Of a stretch of DNA of 64,000 nucleotides, positions 2,190 through 58,247 are shown piece after piece. Under the pieces are notes generated by a model. That model did not search any database, had not been told where the DNA came from, and saw nothing but the letters and a program-made list of their open reading frames with translations. The stretch comes from Chloroflexota bacterium (lineage in GTDB: Bacteria; Chloroflexota; Anaerolineae; Anaerolineales; Villigracilaceae): NCBI GenBank assembly GCA_019873655.1, contig JAIOAU010000008.1, positions 1-64,000 on the forward strand, written 5' to 3'. The position numbers were made by a program, and so were the translations under genes. The stretch's first letter is position 1. Every line of letters starts with the position of its first letter.

Positions 2190-4859
2190 TCAGGAGGGGG
2201 TGAAGTCGAGGTGGCGGGTGGCGGCGTCGAGGAATTTGGTCAGGTGGCTCATAAAGATGAGTTCGACGCTGCCGGTCGGGCCGTTGCGATGCTTGGCGAT
2301 GATGATTTCGGCCACGTTCTGCTTGACGGTGTCCTTCTCGTACTGGTCGGGGCGGTAGATGAACATGACCACGTCGGCGTCTTGTTCGAGGCTGTTGTGG
2401 ACAATCATGTTGTTGGCAACGAAGTTATGATGACCCGGCACGGTCAAATCATAGACTTTCTCCTCGCCGTCGGGTTCAATGGAAACGATGCTGTCCCAGT
2501 AAATATCGCTGTCGGCGAGGCGGGCAAGTTCCTCGGATTTCACCACGCCGGCCACGCGCGCGGCGCGTTCGCGGCTGACGTTCTGCTTGTACAAGCCCGT
2601 GCCGCAGTATTGTGTTCCAATCGCGGCCTGCATTTGACGAGTGGTCAGGCCAACTTGCTGCATGGCAGGGACGACGTGCATGCGCCAGATGTCGCGCGGG
2701 ATGACGTCGCGATTTGTATTGACGGCTCGCCCGTCCAGATGGGTGAGAATTTCGGCAAGTCTTCTCTGCTTGTATTCGCCCACCGCGCCGATTTTTTGGG
2801 CGAAAATTTCAAGGTCGGATTTTCCCGTAATCAACACATTGAACTGGTCGCGCCCCTTTCCGTTCTGGGAGACGCGCTTCAGGATGGCATTGATACCCAG
2901 CCGCAACAACAAGGTTTGCACATCCTGCGCCAGTTGCGGGCTGCTAGTCGCATAATAGGCAATCGGGCGGATTTTCTTCCCTCGCACCAATTGAATGCTT
3001 CCATCTGCAGCCCAAAGATGCCGCAGAAAAACGCCAATGGCCTCATTCGGCTGCTCAAACACCTGCGCCGGAATACGTTTTTCATAAGAGCGCAACCCGA
3101 AAGACTGCAATTCCTCCAGCCACTCGGTCACGGCGCTGTGAACATGGTGGGTATGATGGCGGGTGGAACTGAGATAAACCTGATACCAGCGTCTTTCCGA
3201 CGAGACGCGCGGCGCCACTTCCTCGCCGAAGACTTCCGTTGCAAGAGTGGCCACCAAATCGGCCAGATCTCTTTCGCGGGTTGTGTACTGGATGACATGC
3301 CGCGGCAGCGTGCAGCCGTCGCCAATCAGGTGGCCCAACAACGCCAGTTCCGCGTTGGACATGGTTTGTCGGGTTTCCCGGACGGGCAAGACCCGCGGCA
3401 GGGCAAGATGCTCGCCGATGCTCAATTCATCCAGCTGCTTCCAGCCTTCGATGGTCAGAAATTGGTGATTGCCGGTGGCGCGGATTTCCCGGCCCAGCCG
3501 CGTTCGCATCTTGAAGACCGGTTTTGTCCCCGTGCAAAAGGCGCGGCTGACGGGCATGGCTTCCAACTTCAGGGTGTTTGGATTGAGCGCCCAGATTTCG
3601 AAGCCGGATTTCCCTTCCAACTCGCGGATGGGTACGTTTTGGCCGTTTTCCAGCGGAATGAGCGTCTCGCCTGTCAAGCAGCCCGACTCGCGCAGGTCGG
3701 AGAGCACCGGCCGCTTGTCGGTGCGTTGTTCGACGGCGCGGCTCAATTGGGCGGCGGCCAGCACCGGCACGTTCAGTTCGCGCGCCAGCGCCTTGAGATT
3801 GCGCGAAATGTAGGAGACTTCCTGGACGCGGTTTTCGGTGCGGGTATCGCCGGCCATCAATTGCAAATAGTCGAGGACGATCAAATCGAGGCCGAATTCC
3901 ATGTGCAGACGGCGGCACTTGGTGCGCAGTTGCATCGGGGTAATGGCGGGCGTATCGTCGAGGTAAATGTGGGTGTCGCCGAGCACTTCGATGGCGTGGG
4001 TCAGGCGCGGCCATTCGTCCTCGTTCAATTTGCCGTTGCGCAGGCGCTGCGAGTCGATTCCGGTCTCCTGCGCCAGCAGACGCTGGACGACTTGCTCGTT
4101 GGACATTTCCAGCGAGAAGATGGCGACGTGTTTCTTGTGCAGCAAAGCCGCGTTGCGGGCCACCGACAGCAGAAAGCCCGATTTACCCTGCCCCGGCCGG
4201 CCGGCGATGATGAGCAGGTCGGAGGGCTGCATACCGGTCAACGTGCGGTCCAGGTCGATGAAGCCGGTGGGGACGCCGAAGATGTCCTCGGACCGGCGGG
4301 CCAGTTCGTCGACACGGTCGAAGTATTCGCTCAGGACGCTGGCAATCGGGCGGACGTCGTGGCGCAGGCGTCGCTCGCTGACGTTGAAGAGGTGCTTCTC
4401 GGCCTCGCCGATGACGTTCTCGACCGTCTCCTGCTGGTTGTAGGCCAGGGTGGCGATCTGATTGGCAGCGGTCAGCAGGCGGCGGCGGATGGCGGCGGCC
4501 TCGACCATGCGCCCGTAGGCCTCGGCGTGCAGCGAGGTCGGCACCTGGTTGAGCAGGGCGGTCAGATAGGCCGGGCCGCCGATCTCGGCCAGTTGACCGG
4601 CGCGCTCCAGTTCCTCCGTCACCGTCAGGAAGTCGATCGGGATGCGCTGTTCATGCAAACGATTGAACGCCTCCCAAATCCAGCGGTGACGGTGGATATA
4701 GAAATCTTCCGGCTGGAGAAACTGCGCCAGGTCGTAGTAGACTTCGGGATTGATGAGCACAGCCCCCACAACGGCCTCTTCGGCTTCGCGATTGTGGGGG
4801 ATGACTGCAGCAGAGGAGAACGAGGTCTCGTCAGGAGGAGGATATTCGCTCATGGGCAT
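2190..4859 (-). CDS. dnaB: Replicative DNA helicase DnaB containing an intein
   Basis: 889 residues encoded; removing the intein (residues 394-822) leaves about 460, the normal DnaB size. The N-terminal domain begins PHNREAEEAVVGAVL; the RecA-type domain has Walker A GRPGQGKSG, Walker B LIVLDYLQLM and the SDLRESG/S-x-EQDADVV junction. DnaB is the hexameric 5'-3' helicase of the replication fork. It sits 15 nt after the DUF151 gene and 8 nt before the dnaD-like gene, so the four genes probably form one transcript. ATG at 4859 or the in-frame ATG two codons later can start the protein. The host helicase is functional only after protein splicing. Confidence 0.95.
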   Translation of the reverse strand: MPMSEYPPPDETSFSSAAVIPHNREAEEAVVGAVLINPEVYYDLAQFLQPEDFYIHRHRWIWEAFNRLHEQRIPIDFLTVTEELERAGQLAEIGGPAYLTALLNQVPTSLHAEAYGRMVEAAAIRRRLLTAANQIATLAYNQQETVENVIGEAEKHLFNVSERRLRHDVRPIASVLSEYFDRVDELARRSEDIFGVPTGFIDLDRTLTGMQPSDLLIIAGRPGQGKSGFLLSVARNAALLHKKHVAIFSLEMSNEQVVQRLLAQETGIDSQRLRNGKLNEDEWPRLTHAIEVLGDTHIYLDDTPAITPMQLRTKCRRLHMEFGLDLIVLDYLQLMAGDTRTENRVQEVSYISRNLKALARELNVPVLAAAQLSRAVEQRTDKRPVLSDLRESGCLTGETLIPLENGQNVPIRELEGKSGFEIWALNPNTLKLEAMPVSRAFCTGTKPVFKMRTRLGREIRATGNHQFLTIEGWKQLDELSIGEHLALPRVLPVRETRQTMSNAELALLGHLIGDGCTLPRHVIQYTTRERDLADLVATLATEVFGEEVAPRVSSERRWYQVYLSSTRHHTHHVHSAVTEWLEELQSFGLRSYEKRIPAQVFEQPNEAIGVFLRHLWAADGSIQLVRGKKIRPIAYYATSSPQLAQDVQTLLLRLGINAILKRVSQNGKGRDQFNVLITGKSDLEIFAQKIGAVGEYKQRRLAEILTHLDGRAVNTNRDVIPRDIWRMHVVPAMQQVGLTTRQMQAAIGTQYCGTGLYKQNVSRERAARVAGVVKSEELARLADSDIYWDSIVSIEPDGEEKVYDLTVPGHHNFVANNMIVHNSLEQDADVVMFIYRPDQYEKDTVKQNVAEIIIAKHRNGPTGSVELIFMSHLTKFLDAATRHLDFTPS
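2394..3680 (-). other. DnaB intein with LAGLIDADG homing endonuclease
   Basis: 429 residues interrupt DnaB between SDLRESG and SLEQDAD. The first residue is Cys (CLTGETLI), the end is IVHN, and the following extein residue is Ser: all splicing residues are present, including the block B GNHQFLT. Two dodecapeptides, LLGHLIGDG and LRHLWAADG, mark a LAGLIDADG endonuclease. The insertion point matches that of the well-known Synechocystis DnaB intein. Splicing and homing are predicted from residues only. Confidence 0.95.
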
Positions 4860-4874
4860 TCCAGGCGCAGAGAG

Positions 4875-5432
4875 TCAGGCGGCGGGCGGCTGATCCTGGC
4901 CCTCCGAATCGTCCAATTTCTTCAAGAAATCCTCGAACACATCCAGGCGCTCTTCGCCTGCCGGAGAAGACGGTTCAGAGGAGGCCGTCGGCGGTTCGGC
5001 GGCCGCCTCGAGGCGCAGGTCTTTCTCCGGGACGATGCCGGCCGCATCCATGACTTCGCGATTGACCAGAATCGGGACGCGGGCGCGCACCGCCAGCGCC
5101 AGCGCGTCGGAGGGGCGCGAATCGATCTCCAGCGTCTGGCCCTCTTTTTCGACCACGATGTTGCCGTAGAAAATGTCTTCCTTCAGCGAGACAATCTCCA
5201 CCCGCACGATCTTGCCGCCGAAAGCCTTGAAGACATTGCGCAGCAAGTCGTGGGTCAGAGGCCGAATCATTTCGACCTCCTGCAACGCGACCGTGATCGA
5301 CTCGGCTTCGTAGGGGCCGATCCAAATCGGCAGATAGCGTTCGACATCCGTCTGCCGCAGCAAGATCACCCGCTGAGGCGACATCAAACTCACGCGCACG
5401 CTGTCAATTACAACTTCAACCATCTCTGCCAT
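4875..5432 (-). CDS. DUF151 bifunctional nuclease family protein
   Basis: 185 residues starting MAEMVEVVIDSVRVSL at the ATG at 5432, preceded by GGGAGGCGCTT as ribosome-binding site; the longer open frame upstream is rejected. The DUF151 core is clear: LPIWIGPYEAESI near 33, TRPLTHDLL-like segment and the IDSRPSDALALAVR motif near 108. Members of this family have been described as bifunctional RNase/DNase proteins, but the role in most bacteria is unproven. The C-terminal 45 residues are an acidic, Ser/Pro-rich tail. First gene of the primosome operon, with its own promoter at 5464-5492. Confidence 0.88.
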   Translation of the reverse strand: MAEMVEVVIDSVRVSLMSPQRVILLRQTDVERYLPIWIGPYEAESITVALQEVEMIRPLTHDLLRNVFKAFGGKIVRVEIVSLKEDIFYGNIVVEKEGQTLEIDSRPSDALALAVRARVPILVNREVMDAAGIVPEKDLRLEAAAEPPTASSEPSSPAGEERLDVFEDFLKKLDDSEGQDQPPAA

Positions 5433-5463
5433 AAGCGCCTCCCGTACCCATCGGGGTAATGTT

Positions 5464-5492
5464 ATTCTAACACGCTGCAAGGCGCGGCGCAA
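5464..5492 (-). promoter_or_regulatory. Promoter of the DUF151-dnaB-dnaD operon
   Basis: Minus strand: TTGCGC (5492-5487), 17-nt spacer, TAGAAT (5469-5464). Predicted start near 5457, giving a leader of about 25 nt with a GGGAGG site. Confidence 0.6.
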
Positions 5493-5514
5493 TGCGAATA
5501 AAAAAGCGGGGCAG

Positions 5515-5598
5515 GGCTTTCTCAAAGCCCAAGAAACGGCCACAGATTTCACGGAGCGGTCGGGCCAAATCTGTGGCTGAAATGATCTTGAGAAAGCC
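5515..5598. repeat. Nested inverted repeat
   Basis: Outer arms GGCTTTCTCAA (5515-5525) and its complement (5588-5598) enclose inner arms CCACAGATTT (5540-5549) and complement (5567-5576). The nested arms would make one long interrupted hairpin. It lies upstream of the operon promoter, between it and the hepT end; no coding potential. MITE-like or a terminator for hepT are both possible. Confidence 0.6.
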
Positions 5599-5670
5599 GT
5601 AAAAAGCGAGGGGTTGTCCTGCCTGGCGATCGGCCAGAGGATGCCATCCGTTGCGAGACGGCAGCGTTGA

Positions 5671-5711
5671 TACAAGATTGGCTCGATGCGGATGTTCTCC
5701 GCGCCGATGGC
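5671..5711. repeat. Left copy of the dnaE 3'-end direct repeat
   Basis: About 37 of 41 positions match 6390-6430, which encodes the C-terminal GAENIRIEPILYQ of DnaE. The left copy still translates to the same peptide but has no dnaE body attached. The hepT stop codon begins at the repeat edge. Confidence 0.85.
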
Positions 5712-6037
5712 TATAACATGTTTGCCACTGCAGCCTTCAAACGGGGCAGGTCGTTCTCGATGATGTTCCACACCAGTTCCAGGTCAACACCCAGATAATC
5801 GTGAACAAGAACATTCCTGAAACCCCGAATCTTGTGCCAATCGATTTCAGGGTGGTTTTCCTGGACAATCTCGGAAATTCGCATGGCAGACTCGGCCATG
5901 ACTTGTAAATTACGAATGACTGCATCCTGGACGAGACCAGAATTCATAAAAGCCTGTTTCCCACCCTCGCCAAGATATTCTTCGATGCGCTGGATACATT
6001 CGCTGATGTGGATTAGGTAGAGCCGGTCATCTTTCAT
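5711..6037 (-). CDS. hepT: HepT-like toxin (HEPN domain, DUF86)
   Basis: 108 residues, all-helical, with the HEPN signature RNVLVHDY (R-x4-H-x-Y) at about 83-90. In characterised type VII systems HepT is an RNase toxin that the MntA nucleotidyltransferase silences by AMPylating the Tyr of this motif; R, H and Y are all present here. It overlaps mntA by 4 nt, as expected of a co-translated toxin-antitoxin pair. The pair is flanked by a duplicated dnaE 3' end. Confidence 0.9.
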   Translation of the reverse strand: MKDDRLYLIHISECIQRIEEYLGEGGKQAFMNSGLVQDAVIRNLQVMAESAMRISEIVQENHPEIDWHKIRGFRNVLVHDYLGVDLELVWNIIENDLPRLKAAVANML

Positions 6038-10235: not shown

Positions 10236-10270
10236 TTCAGTGTTCAGTATTCAGTGTTCAGTGTTCAGTG
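10236..10270. repeat. Heptad repeat (TTCAGTG)x5 in the dnaE leader
   Basis: Five consecutive 7-mers TTCAGTG/TTCAGTA, between the dnaE -10 box and its start codon. Part of the window-wide period-7 pattern. Confidence 0.85.
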
Positions 10271-10309
10271 TTCGGGCGTCGGGCGCGGGCAACCAATCAA
10301 AGCAATGCG

Positions 10310-15160: not shown

Positions 15161-15235
15161 AGCACAACGTACAAAGGCCGCAAAAGAATTTGTGAATGTC
15201 GCGCTTGGCCTCCTTTTACTGTTATCGGACACGTT

Positions 15236-16048
15236 ATGAACCCTGAACCGCTTCCTCTCCCCGCCAGACTCGGCCCGCGGGTGGTCAAGTCCATGCCGCT
15301 CGAGATGGTCTTCCTGTGCCTGTTCAAGAACGAACTCTTCCGCCTCTCGTGGGGCGCCAAGAACGCCCACGGCGAGGAATGGACCCGCCTGCAGGCCGAA
15401 TTCGAAGCCCGCCTGGCGCGCATGCAGAAAGAAGCCCTCAAAGAAGGCTGGCTCAAACCCCAGGGCGTCTACGGCTACTGGCCCTGCAACTCGGACGGCG
15501 ACGACCTGATCATCTACGATCCCCAATCCGTTTCGTCCGAGAATCCGCGACCGAGGCCGTTGACGACCTTCACCTTCCCGCGCCAGCCCGACGGCGACCG
15601 CCTCTGCCTGGCCGATTACTTCGCCCCGGTCGATTCCGGCCAGCTCGACGTGGTCGCCTTCCAGGTCGTGACCGTCGGCCAGGAGGCCACCGAACGCTTC
15701 GAGCGGCTGGAGGCGGCGGGCGAGTACGCCGAGATGTACTACGTCCACGGCCTGGCCGTCCAGACCGCCGAGGCGGCCGCCGAGTACCTCCATCGCCACA
15801 TCCGCCGCGAACTCGGCTTGGCCCCCGACCAGGGCAAACGTTACTCCTGGGGCTATCCGGCCATCCCTGACCTGGCCGACCATCGCAAAGTCTTCGACCT
15901 GCTGCCCGCCGAAACCGAACTGGGCATGTCGCTGACCGCCGCCTATCAACTCGTGCCCGAGCAGTCCACCGCTGCCATCATCGTCCATCACAGCCAGGCG
16001 CGTTACTTCAACATCGGCGGCAGCCGGGTCGATCAGTTAACCAGGTAA
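15236..16048 (+). CDS. Stand-alone MetH reactivation (AdoMet-binding) domain
   Basis: 270 residues matching the C-terminal activation domain of MetH: YGYWPCNSDGDDLIIY, FPRQPDGDRLCLADYF, DVVAFQVVTVG, and RYSWGYPAIPDLADHRKVFD with the R-x-S-x-G-Y-x-A AdoMet/cobalamin motif. It would remethylate oxidised cobalamin on the MetH core encoded just upstream, using AdoMet and a reductant. In E. coli these are one chain of about 1230 residues. ATG at 15236; followed 3 nt later by panD. Confidence 0.93.
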   Translation: MNPEPLPLPARLGPRVVKSMPLEMVFLCLFKNELFRLSWGAKNAHGEEWTRLQAEFEARLARMQKEALKEGWLKPQGVYGYWPCNSDGDDLIIYDPQSVSSENPRPRPLTTFTFPRQPDGDRLCLADYFAPVDSGQLDVVAFQVVTVGQEATERFERLEAAGEYAEMYYVHGLAVQTAEAAAEYLHRHIRRELGLAPDQGKRYSWGYPAIPDLADHRKVFDLLPAETELGMSLTAAYQLVPEQSTAAIIVHHSQARYFNIGGSRVDQLTR

Positions 16049-18298: not shown

Positions 18299-18391
18299 AC
18301 CGTAGACGGTGGACCATAGACCGTGTTCTTCCTCCACCGTCTACCGTCCACCGTCTACCGTCTACCGTCCACCGTCCATTGTCCACCGTCT
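18297..18391. repeat. Inverted arrays of ACCGTCY heptads
   Basis: AGACCGT/AGACGGT-type heptads at 18297-18324 face eight ACCGTCT/ACCGTCC heptads at 18336-18391, so the arms can pair into a long hairpin. It starts in the stop-codon region of the MTHFR fusion and ends 15 nt before coaX. It may act as terminator or processing site. Confidence 0.85.
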
Positions 18392-28324: not shown

Positions 28325-30046
28325 TCACCCCATCCAACCCCTCGGATAGTGATTCTTGACCACCGCGCCGACGCGCTTGCCCCATCCCAGCGGCCAGCCG
28401 TCCACCGTGACCAGCAGCCAGCCGGCCTCCCCTGCCGAGGTCAGCGGCTCGCCGCGCAGGTAGGCGGCCAGGGCCGGGTCGCCGGGAGACAGGTCCAGGG
28501 TCCGGCGCGCCCCGCCGGGGCGCAGAAACAGCGCCAGCGGATGGGCCGGTTCGAAGCGGCCGGTCTTGAACGTCCCCACCCAGACGCCGGGATGGACGAG
28601 GCGCAAATTTCCAAAATCCGGCATCTCCTCCGGGACGAGGTACAAGCGCTCGCCGCGCACCCGCAGCCGTTCGGCGGGAAACTCGACGGTCAGCGCGGCT
28701 TCGCGGAACGCCTCCCAGTCCGCCCATTGCGCCCGCGTCGGAGGGTTCAAGCGCCCAGGCCGCCCCGCCGTCTTCCCCCGCTTCTCCGCGTCGGCGTCCA
28801 TCGAGACTCGCCGCAGCAGACAGACAAAATGCCCCTCGCCGGCAATCCGATGGGGGAACAGGCGCACTGCGCCCTCCAATTCTTTTGTGTGCAAGCCGGC
28901 CCACTCCGGTCGCCCCGGCATAAATCCATCCATCCTGGGCAAAGCCACGACCTCGAATTCCCTCCCTCCGCTTTCATCCACCCGTCCGTGTAAAAATCCG
29001 TTCCGAAATCCGTTTTCATCCGTGAGTCCGTGACCAAGTCCGTTGATGAAATCCGTTCCCATCCGTGAATCCGTGACCCAGTCCGTTGACCGCAATCCGT
29101 TTCCATCCGTGAATCCGTGACCAAGTCCGTTTCCGCAATCCGTTCCCATCCGTGAATCCGTGACCCAGTCCGTTGACCGCAATCCGTTCCCATCCGTGAT
29201 TCCGCGACCAAGTCCGTTTCCGTAATCCGTTTCCATCCGTGATTCCGTGACCAAGTCCGTTGACCGCAATCCGTTCCCATCCGTGAATCCGTGACAAAGT
29301 CCGTTGACCACCGCCTCATTCTCCTCCGGCGCGAACGTGCAGGTGGAATACAGCAAATACCCGCCCGGCCGGACGAGTTTTCTGGCTACACGCAAGATGT
29401 TGGTCTGGCGCGCCGCGCAGCCCGCCACCATCTCCGGCGACCAGTCGCGCCGCGCCCCCATGTCTTTGCGGAACATGCCCTCCCCCGAACAGGGCGCATC
29501 GACCAGGACGCGGTCGAAGAACGCCCCGAAGTGGTCGGCCAGGCGTTCGGGCGTCTCGTTGGTGATGACGATGTTGCCTGCGCCCCAGCGCTCGACGTTC
29601 TGAACCAGGTGCCCAAGGCGGCTGTTCTTGATCTCATTGGCGACCAGCAAGCCGCCCCCCTGCATCAGAGCGGCGAGATGGGTGGTCTTCCCGCCGGGGG
29701 CGGCCGCCAGGTCGAGGACGCGTTCCCCTGCTTGGGGAGCGAGCGCTTCGGCCGCCGCCATCGCTGAAGGGTCTTGCAAGTAATACAGGCCGGCCAGGTG
29801 ATAGGGATGCCTGCCAGGCCGCTCCTCCCCCTCCAAAAAGAAAGCCGCCGGACACCACGGCACTCGCCCCCCCAGCGGAAAAGGGGCGATCTTCTCGAAC
29901 GCCTCCGCGCTCAATTTCAGCGTGTTGACCCGCAGCCCGCTGACGGGTTCGCCCTCCAGCGCGGCGGCAAAGGCGGGGAACTCATCGCCGAGCAGGCGGA
30001 ACATGCGTTCAAGAAAGAAGGGCGGCAGAGGCGCAGAAGCAGACAT
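28325..30046 (-). CDS. RsmF/RsmB-type rRNA cytosine-5 methyltransferase with in-frame tandem repeat
   Basis: 573 residues. SAM site LDLAAAPGGKTTHLA; catalytic VDAPCSGEG and YSTCTFAPEENE cysteines; C-terminal PUA-like and RsmF C-terminal region ending AVVKNHYPRGWMG. Such enzymes methylate cytosine in rRNA. Between EENEAVVNGL and FEVVALPRMDG lies about 110 residues encoded by seven 43/44-bp repeats, read in two alternating frames. The start ATG at 30046 is 6 nt after TATAAT, so the mRNA is predicted leaderless; the longer frame upstream overlaps the divergent gene and is rejected. Confidence 0.88.
   Translation of the reverse strand: MSASAPLPPFFLERMFRLLGDEFPAFAAALEGEPVSGLRVNTLKLSAEAFEKIAPFPLGGRVPWCPAAFFLEGEERPGRHPYHLAGLYYLQDPSAMAAAEALAPQAGERVLDLAAAPGGKTTHLAALMQGGGLLVANEIKNSRLGHLVQNVERWGAGNIVITNETPERLADHFGAFFDRVLVDAPCSGEGMFRKDMGARRDWSPEMVAGCAARQTNILRVARKLVRPGGYLLYSTCTFAPEENEAVVNGLCHGFTDGNGLRSTDLVTESRMETDYGNGLGRGITDGNGLRSTDWVTDSRMGTDCGNGLGHGFTDGNGLRSTDWVTDSRMGTDFINGLGHGLTDENGFRNGFLHGRVDESGGREFEVVALPRMDGFMPGRPEWAGLHTKELEGAVRLFPHRIAGEGHFVCLLRRVSMDADAEKRGKTAGRPGRLNPPTRAQWADWEAFREAALTVEFPAERLRVRGERLYLVPEEMPDFGNLRLVHPGVWVGTFKTGRFEPAHPLALFLRPGGARRTLDLSPGDPALAAYLRGEPLTSAGEAGWLLVTVDGWPLGWGKRVGAVVKNHYPRGWMG
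29006..29309. repeat. Seven 43/44-bp tandem repeats inside the methyltransferase gene
   Basis: Units begin AATCCGTT and contain CCATCCGTGAATCCGTGACC. Lengths alternate 44, 43, 44, 43, 44, so successive units are read in two frames (NGLGHGFTDGNGLR and STDWVTDSRMGTDCG), together 29 codons. Confidence 0.95.
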
Positions 30047-57991: not shown

Positions 57992-58031
57992 AATACTCCA
58001 AGGAAGCGCCAGAATCCGATGCCCGCATTCT

Positions 58032-58212
58032 TTCTGCTTCCGAGGGGGCTTGGCCCCCGAAAACCTCCGGCCATCTTCTCTGCTCCCGAGGGGCTTTGCC
58101 CCCGAAACCTTCTGGCCGTCTTATCTGCTCCTGAGGAGGCTTGGCCCCCAAAACCTCCGGCCATCTTCTCTGCTTCCGAGGGGGCTTGGCCCCCGAAAGT
58201 TTCCAACCGTTC
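58032..58212. repeat. Four 45-bp tandem hairpin repeats
   Basis: Each unit has CGAGGGGGCTTGGCCCCCG, a perfect or near-perfect hairpin, then AAAACCTCCGGCCATCTT. Units are 45-46 bp. The array fills the gap between the HxxxDG gene and the kinase; it is open in the kinase frame, but the real kinase ATG is at 58248. Confidence 0.92.
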
Positions 58213-58247
58213 TTTCCGCTCCTCAATCTCGTCAACAGCGAGATGAC

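Follow-up and report, generated by a model that had tools for sequence, protein, structure and literature searches.

How can a tandem repeat whose unit is not a multiple of three lie inside the gene for an RsmF-type methyltransferase and leave the reading frame intact, and where does such a repeat come from? The question is raised by a locus in contig JAIOAU010000008.1 of assembly GCA_019873655.1 (Anaerolineales; Villigracilaceae), of which a stretch of 64,000 nt was analysed. This whole stretch is called the window, and all positions given without the name of a database locus are window positions. The gene and its insert comprise the following features, for which the domains were taken from Pfam, the whole insert from a DNA comparison with five relatives and the seven units from the weight matrix/sequence model:

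28325..30046, minus strand: gene for an RsmF-type m5C methyltransferase, 573 aa (Pfam and PDB relatives)
29300..29746, minus strand: match to the catalytic domain Methyltr_RsmB-F, aa 101-249, ending about where the array starts
28523..28702, minus strand: first C-terminal domain of RsmF, aa 449-508
28334..28468, minus strand: PUA-like RNA-binding domain, aa 527-571
28958..29308, minus strand: whole insert, 351 nt, codons 247-363, in place of 30 nt in the relatives
29269..29308, minus strand: repeat unit 1, 40-nt core
29225..29264, minus strand: repeat unit 2
29182..29221, minus strand: repeat unit 3
29138..29177, minus strand: repeat unit 4, core exactly that of unit 6
29095..29134, minus strand: repeat unit 5
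29051..29090, minus strand: repeat unit 6, core exactly that of unit 4
29008..29047, minus strand: repeat unit 7
28967..29002, minus strand: at the insert's 3' edge, possibly a partial unit that has decayed (sequence model E 0.4, not significant alone)

The rsmF frame is open throughout, array included, between its ATG at 30046 and its stop at 28325, and all four RsmF Pfam domains (PF17125, PF01189, PF17126, PF13636) are kept, each above its cut-off, with the N-terminal, catalytic, C-terminal and PUA-like domains all being detected in the product. Relatives of the product in the PDB are 3m6u and 3m4x, of which 3m6u, the best solved relative, covers residues 7-248 and resumes from residue 374. 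An earlier note on this DNA had located the array between the catalytic domain (after motif TC) and the next strand, and the insert indeed follows directly on the TC motif and precedes the C-terminal part of the protein. The NCBIfam equivalog cut-off of 690 is not reached by the RsmF-type product (best score 435.3 bits), and the array insert may lower this score. The predicted enzyme probably tolerates the insert, and the segment would be a flexible linker without a function of its own.

TRF describes the array either as 7.0 copies of 44 bp (29003-29309, score 474) or as 3.5 copies of 87 bp (29003-29308, score 486). The weight matrix places seven 40-nt cores, a number that is given as assembled, between 29008 and 29308 on the minus strand, which are separated by spacers of 3 or 4 nt and have start distances of 43, 44, 43, 44, 43, and 44 nt. 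The odd units translate as NGLGHGFTDGNGLR or the variants NGLCHGFTDGNGLR, NGLGRGITDGNGLR, and NGLGHGLTDENGFR, and the even units as STDWVTDSRMGTDCG or variants thereof. The seven near-identical units of alternating length with two alternating translations, as seen in the earlier note, are therefore borne out by TRF, weight matrix and translations alike. The self-identity of the array peaks at lag 87 with 0.916, whereas lags 43 and 44 give about 0.60. Together with the identical cores of units 4 and 6, this peak identifies an 87-bp dimer of 29 codons as the growth unit. Growth by this dimer accounts for the odd and even units being read in two frames, as every pair restores the frame, and it likewise explains what had been claimed before, namely that the frame is kept from ATG to stop even though the unit is not a multiple of three.

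Among 61 genomes searched, rsmF was found at E<=1e-30 in 24, the own genome included. The array is absent in all 23 aligned relatives with the gene, in which the helix after the TC motif joins the next segment directly according to the alignment, and thus the own genome is the only carrier among those compared. At the DNA level, the net gain amounts to 107 codons versus five relatives. The insertion was not clean, since about 30 nt of the relatives' sequence are gone or replaced, and no target duplication was seen at the rsmF insert, the relatives being too divergent for a clean empty site.

The array DNA is also present far outside of rsmF. Used as BLAST query, it finds 18 places in the own genome at E<=0.001, and as a second place matches the rsmF array at E 1.4e-117, the array is not a product of chance. 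With a 40-position sequence model, 68 matches were obtained in the own genome at E<=1, and the matches at E<=0.001 were grouped by hand into about 13 sites. This model replaced a loose CGGA-box pattern, which gave 214 matches in the own genome versus 106 in the control and was rejected as too close. Model matches at E<=0.001 are present in 30 of 121 genomes, again with the own genome included, and their number per genome ranges from 62 to none. A pattern scan of GTDB gave at least 115 stretches, and among the matches listed 107 of 115 carry Chloroflexota names, with Anaerolineales making up 51 of these 107. The other eight listed belong to three actinomycetes, Lachnospiraceae, Bacteroidales, Falkowbacteria, Flavobacteriales, and a cyanobacterium MAG; those of the actinomycetes, Lachnospiraceae and Bacteroidales may be due to chance, and the last three may reflect contamination or transfer. 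In plasmid and phage collections the array DNA had no match, and a repeat of ~43 bp in Anaerolineales is not described in the titles and abstracts searched, a coverage outside of which most subscription journals lie.

In 124 single units the conserved part comprises 42-43 nt, with the information being near background outside positions -2 to 40, and neither a conserved flank nor inverted ends are found in them. Three single units fold no better than shuffled sequences (z +0.60 to +0.80) and are not palindromic. The mean column identity is 88 % in 42 units selected by the CGGA-box pattern, in which the invariance of the CGGA boxes is no evidence since the selecting pattern demands them. The rsmF array is an expanded copy of a dispersed, non-palindromic family with sharp ends, which occurs in both orientations. 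Our main reading, to which we assign a probability of about 0.8, is that it is a tandemly expanded copy of a non-palindromic Anaerolineales repeat of ~43 bp that invades genes, is maintained in linkers, loops and ends, and grows in frame-preserving steps. The unit would copy itself to new sites, insertions would persist only where the frame is open and the protein has a linker, a loop or an end, and the copy number would later shift by slippage or unequal recombination. Within genes, such changes would survive only if whole codons were added.

The sites inside genes fit this picture at many loci of the own genome. In-frame units are found in photolyase, IMPase, PurL, MtnA, an RNase H-like/TPR protein, a PDDEXK_3-PurM fusion, and RsmF, and one further unit is located in the window itself. 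This unit and the fusion are:

15526..15564, minus strand: second, decayed unit of the family, in a methionine-synthase-like frame (15161-16045, plus strand; model E 9.7e-5)
L015 1550-3241 (C12 of the own genome): PDDEXK_3 (GxxExxY) joined in one frame to PurM (AIRS domains), with a linker that bears the repeat (Pfam)

At the decayed unit, the MetH-like frame is about seven residues longer than 8ssd. Altogether, in our own reading, eight of the ~13 sites lie inside genes, the remaining five being intergenic or located at the end of a gene. The earlier note had suggested an intergenic-type repeat that entered and grew in a coding gene: entry and growth hold, given the dispersed copies and the 23 of 23 relatives without the array, but a purely intergenic nature is contradicted by the eight sites inside genes. 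For RsmF, IMPase, the RNase H-like/TPR protein, PurL, photolyase, and MtnA, homologues or domains extend across the unit or flank it on both sides. The IMPase insert falls between residues 80 and 86 of 5yht in the PDB alignment, that of photolyase lies between two Pfam domains, and the MtnA unit replaces a segment of similar length and adds little. Several sites are common to the own genome and relatives, namely IMPase in G001 and G025, MtnA in G001 and G036, and PurL in G001, G002, and G009. The remaining IMPase, MtnA and PurL loci fetched have no unit at the score used, and the photolyase and RNase H-like loci fetched from relatives, 19 of each, contain none either. The clearest case of one site with different growth is IMPase, with 42-bp steps in the own genome and steps of 60, 60, and 30 in G001, which is of the same genus. 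Two photolyase relatives have other long linkers at the place of the own-genome insert, and other long or repeat-like linkers are located at the same MtnA and photolyase places of the relatives in L201, L213, L278, and L279.

In database loci, 139 arrays were collected, 23 of which were called in frame within a gene by a coding-potential test, with 11 of the 139 being too close to the locus end for a call. The Pfam scan covered 20 of the 23 in-frame arrays. Pfam domains flank the unit on either side or span it in PurF, NuoF, TrpF, SelA, a chorismate-binding enzyme, LeuRS, a DHH-CBS-PolyA polymerase, and the PDDEXK_3-PurM fusion, the latter frame with its repeat linker being present also in L144, L181, L183, L192, and L300 and thus in six genomes (Pfam). 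For a GHMP kinase, cytochrome b, an amine oxidase, and a TPR protein, domains were found on one side only, and for L100 on neither side. Two of the 23, L090 and L149 from unrelated phyla, look like chance. Furthermore, 21 of the 139 arrays have both flanks coding on one strand, which are frame-shifted or stopped. Read by eye, about ten of these resemble gene junctions, such as the purD end, an aminotransferase-peptidase junction or the purH start (names by eye), and six belong to one locus, L161; there may be broken genes among the remaining ones. In L182, L191, and L118, the unit is located at the same junction of aminotransferase and M20-type peptidase genes (names by eye).

How the unit is read without stops can be seen from its consensus. 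The G-rich (sense) strand contains zero stops in all three frames at periods of 42, 43, and 44, whereas on the antisense strand one frame is open at period 42 and none at 43 or 44. Among shuffled cores, 1091 of 20000 are open in all three frames of one strand. Real arrays are not all open in this way: those on C5 and C6, which are located outside of genes, contain stops in each of the sense frames. For the step size, the 61 multi-unit arrays listed were compared: spacings are exclusively multiples of three in 17 of the 19 arrays within spanning frames versus eight of the 42 others (Fisher 2.4e-7), a test that is partly circular, since it was an open frame that placed an array inside a gene, and in antisense the frame is open only with suitable steps. 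Several sites in this test have a common descent or at any rate a common position: six of the 19 arrays are the PDDEXK_3-PurM linker and three are PurF. When each gene family is counted once, eight of ten have only such spacings (P 0.0005). Antisense arrays have them in 14 of 14 cases, and sense arrays, which are free of the open-frame bias, in three of five versus eight of 42 (P 0.08). The two exceptions are the rsmF array with its 87-bp dimer and a PurF array with steps of 43, 42, 42, and 42, which is back in frame at its end. Unit numbers may contain errors, since most of the genomes are draft or metagenome assemblies. The unit is antisense in 11 of 19 gene families versus one in four expected if the open frames were used equally (P 0.002), in a tally made by hand that includes the one-sided cases and L100, and we regard this antisense excess as tentative.

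Several other explanations have to be weighed against these data. A low-complexity linker that was born in rsmF by local slippage, with no outside source, would fit the tandem build, the linker position and the differing lengths of the relatives' linkers, but the same 40-nt core is found in unrelated genes and in intergenic DNA in both orientations, which makes such an origin hardly credible. That the array is an artefact in the assembly of a metagenome genome has next to no probability: its 307 bp may exceed the read length used, but both rsmF halves are in one frame and units occur at the same genes in other assemblies, as for IMPase, MtnA and PurL in the relatives named above. An unlikely idea is a functional DNA site that is bound by a host protein, with the coding insertions as a side effect. 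Each unit has four CGGA boxes at 12, 8, 10, and 12-14 bp, which average near one helical turn, and the box spacings in arrays sum to 42-44 with a mean of 10.5-11 bp. However, both the putative binding protein and a fixed genomic placement are hypothetical, the matches vary between genomes from the maximum of 62 down to none, and the invariance of the boxes is imposed by the selecting patterns.

The remaining two explanations each name a mover. A REP/REPIN-type element moved by a RAYT (Y1 transposase) would be in accordance with the unit size, which is within range, with Y1 matches in 40 of 41 genomes searched, and with the long hairpins that two convergent pairs form when folded. Inverted neighbour pairs are convergent in 14 cases and divergent in one; six of the 14 are L161 copies, and outside of L161 eight of nine are convergent. 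On the other hand, the three single units tested are not palindromic, direct neighbours prevail over inverted ones with 132 versus 15 (duplicate loci counted), none of the five Y1 matches in the own genome has a unit within 10 kb on its contig, and the unit is present in none of 30 fetched Y1 loci, a subset of the Y1 genes of which ten are from unit-bearing genomes. A RAYT as mover is thus unsupported, and we consider this explanation very unlikely. The purD-purM pairs had suggested a GxxExxY/PDDEXK_3 nuclease instead, with the unit forming the inverted ends of an element that carries its gene: in the own genome and eight others, convergent units 552-668 nt apart flank such a frame, which is confirmed by Pfam in six of the nine and read by eye in L109, L120, and L146/L305. 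Yet all nine are found in the same context, the purD-purM interval (partly by eye), the gene is present in many genomes that lack the unit, and none of 30 fetched PDDEXK_3 loci contains the unit, so that this mover is unsupported as well and the explanation highly improbable. Within L161, the stretch 3850-5950 contains six convergent unit pairs that resemble each other, have a 41-nt gap and are themselves repeated along the locus.

An expanded copy of a dispersed repeat, which remains our preferred reading, can be compared with several known systems. Single units have no terminal inverted repeats and convergent unit pairs are few, unlike in a MITE. The small dispersed repeats (SDRs) of cyanobacteria, reportedly described by Elhai et al. 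in 2008, are said to be very short, tandem in places and suspected to be mobile. Compared by description, SDRs share these three traits with the Anaerolineales unit, but are only ~20 bp long (PMC2884548). REP/REPIN sequences are described as a high-copy, extragenic and palindromic class of 20-40 bp that accompanies RAYT genes (PMC3116915, PMC3733652); the Anaerolineales unit is similar in its dispersal, size class and occasional inverted pairs forming hairpins, but it is located also inside genes, is not palindromic and was not seen near the Y1 genes examined. PARCEL repeats of Mollicutes and others are tandem repeat coding DNA dispersed among genes, like the Anaerolineales unit, but differ from it by their dyad symmetry and by encoding amphipathic domains, e.g., in surface lipoproteins (PMC2996958). 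In-frame invasion of core genes by selfish DNA is described mainly for intracellular bacteria and palindromic elements (PMC10969869, PMC2996958). The Rickettsia palindromic elements (RPE; Ogata et al. 2000 and 2002, as cited in PMC10969869), which have counterparts in Wolbachia and Methanocaldococcus, are palindromic and ~150 bp long (PMC10969869), and they are found in frame within unrelated housekeeping genes, where they typically occupy segments that are not structured (PMC10969869, PMC2996958). The Anaerolineales unit was found to be likewise small, dispersed and in frame in unrelated genes, whereas it has 42-44 bp, is non-palindromic, forms long tandem arrays and is at home in Chloroflexota. 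By analogy, it would work like an RPE but lacks the defining feature of RPEs, palindromy.

A wider claim, for which we would give slightly less than even odds, is that this repeat may be a Chloroflexota-wide source of in-frame linkers and one of the smallest mobile DNAs (~43 bp, sharply bounded, free of inverted repeats and without a known transposase), which enters core metabolic genes in the four frames that are open in the consensus and then lengthens by codon-sized steps. With filled and empty orthologous sites and with step sizes that differ between genes and spacers, the family would allow the gain of protein length to be studied as a natural experiment, and it would also inform how DNA that small can move. 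Repeat-derived linkers are to be expected in Anaerolineales proteins in the databases. In the viral contig L196, a unit (3176-3215) is located at the junction of two probable phage tail genes (by eye), which hints at transport by phages.

The window contains further repeats of other kinds. At 58028-58223, a different 45-bp repeat with 3.8 copies and the core GAGGGGGCTTGGCCCCC lies inside several open frames, and heptanucleotide tandem repeats (TTCAGTG at 10236-10273 and TCCACCG at 18333-18390, respectively) are located near the ends of reading frames.
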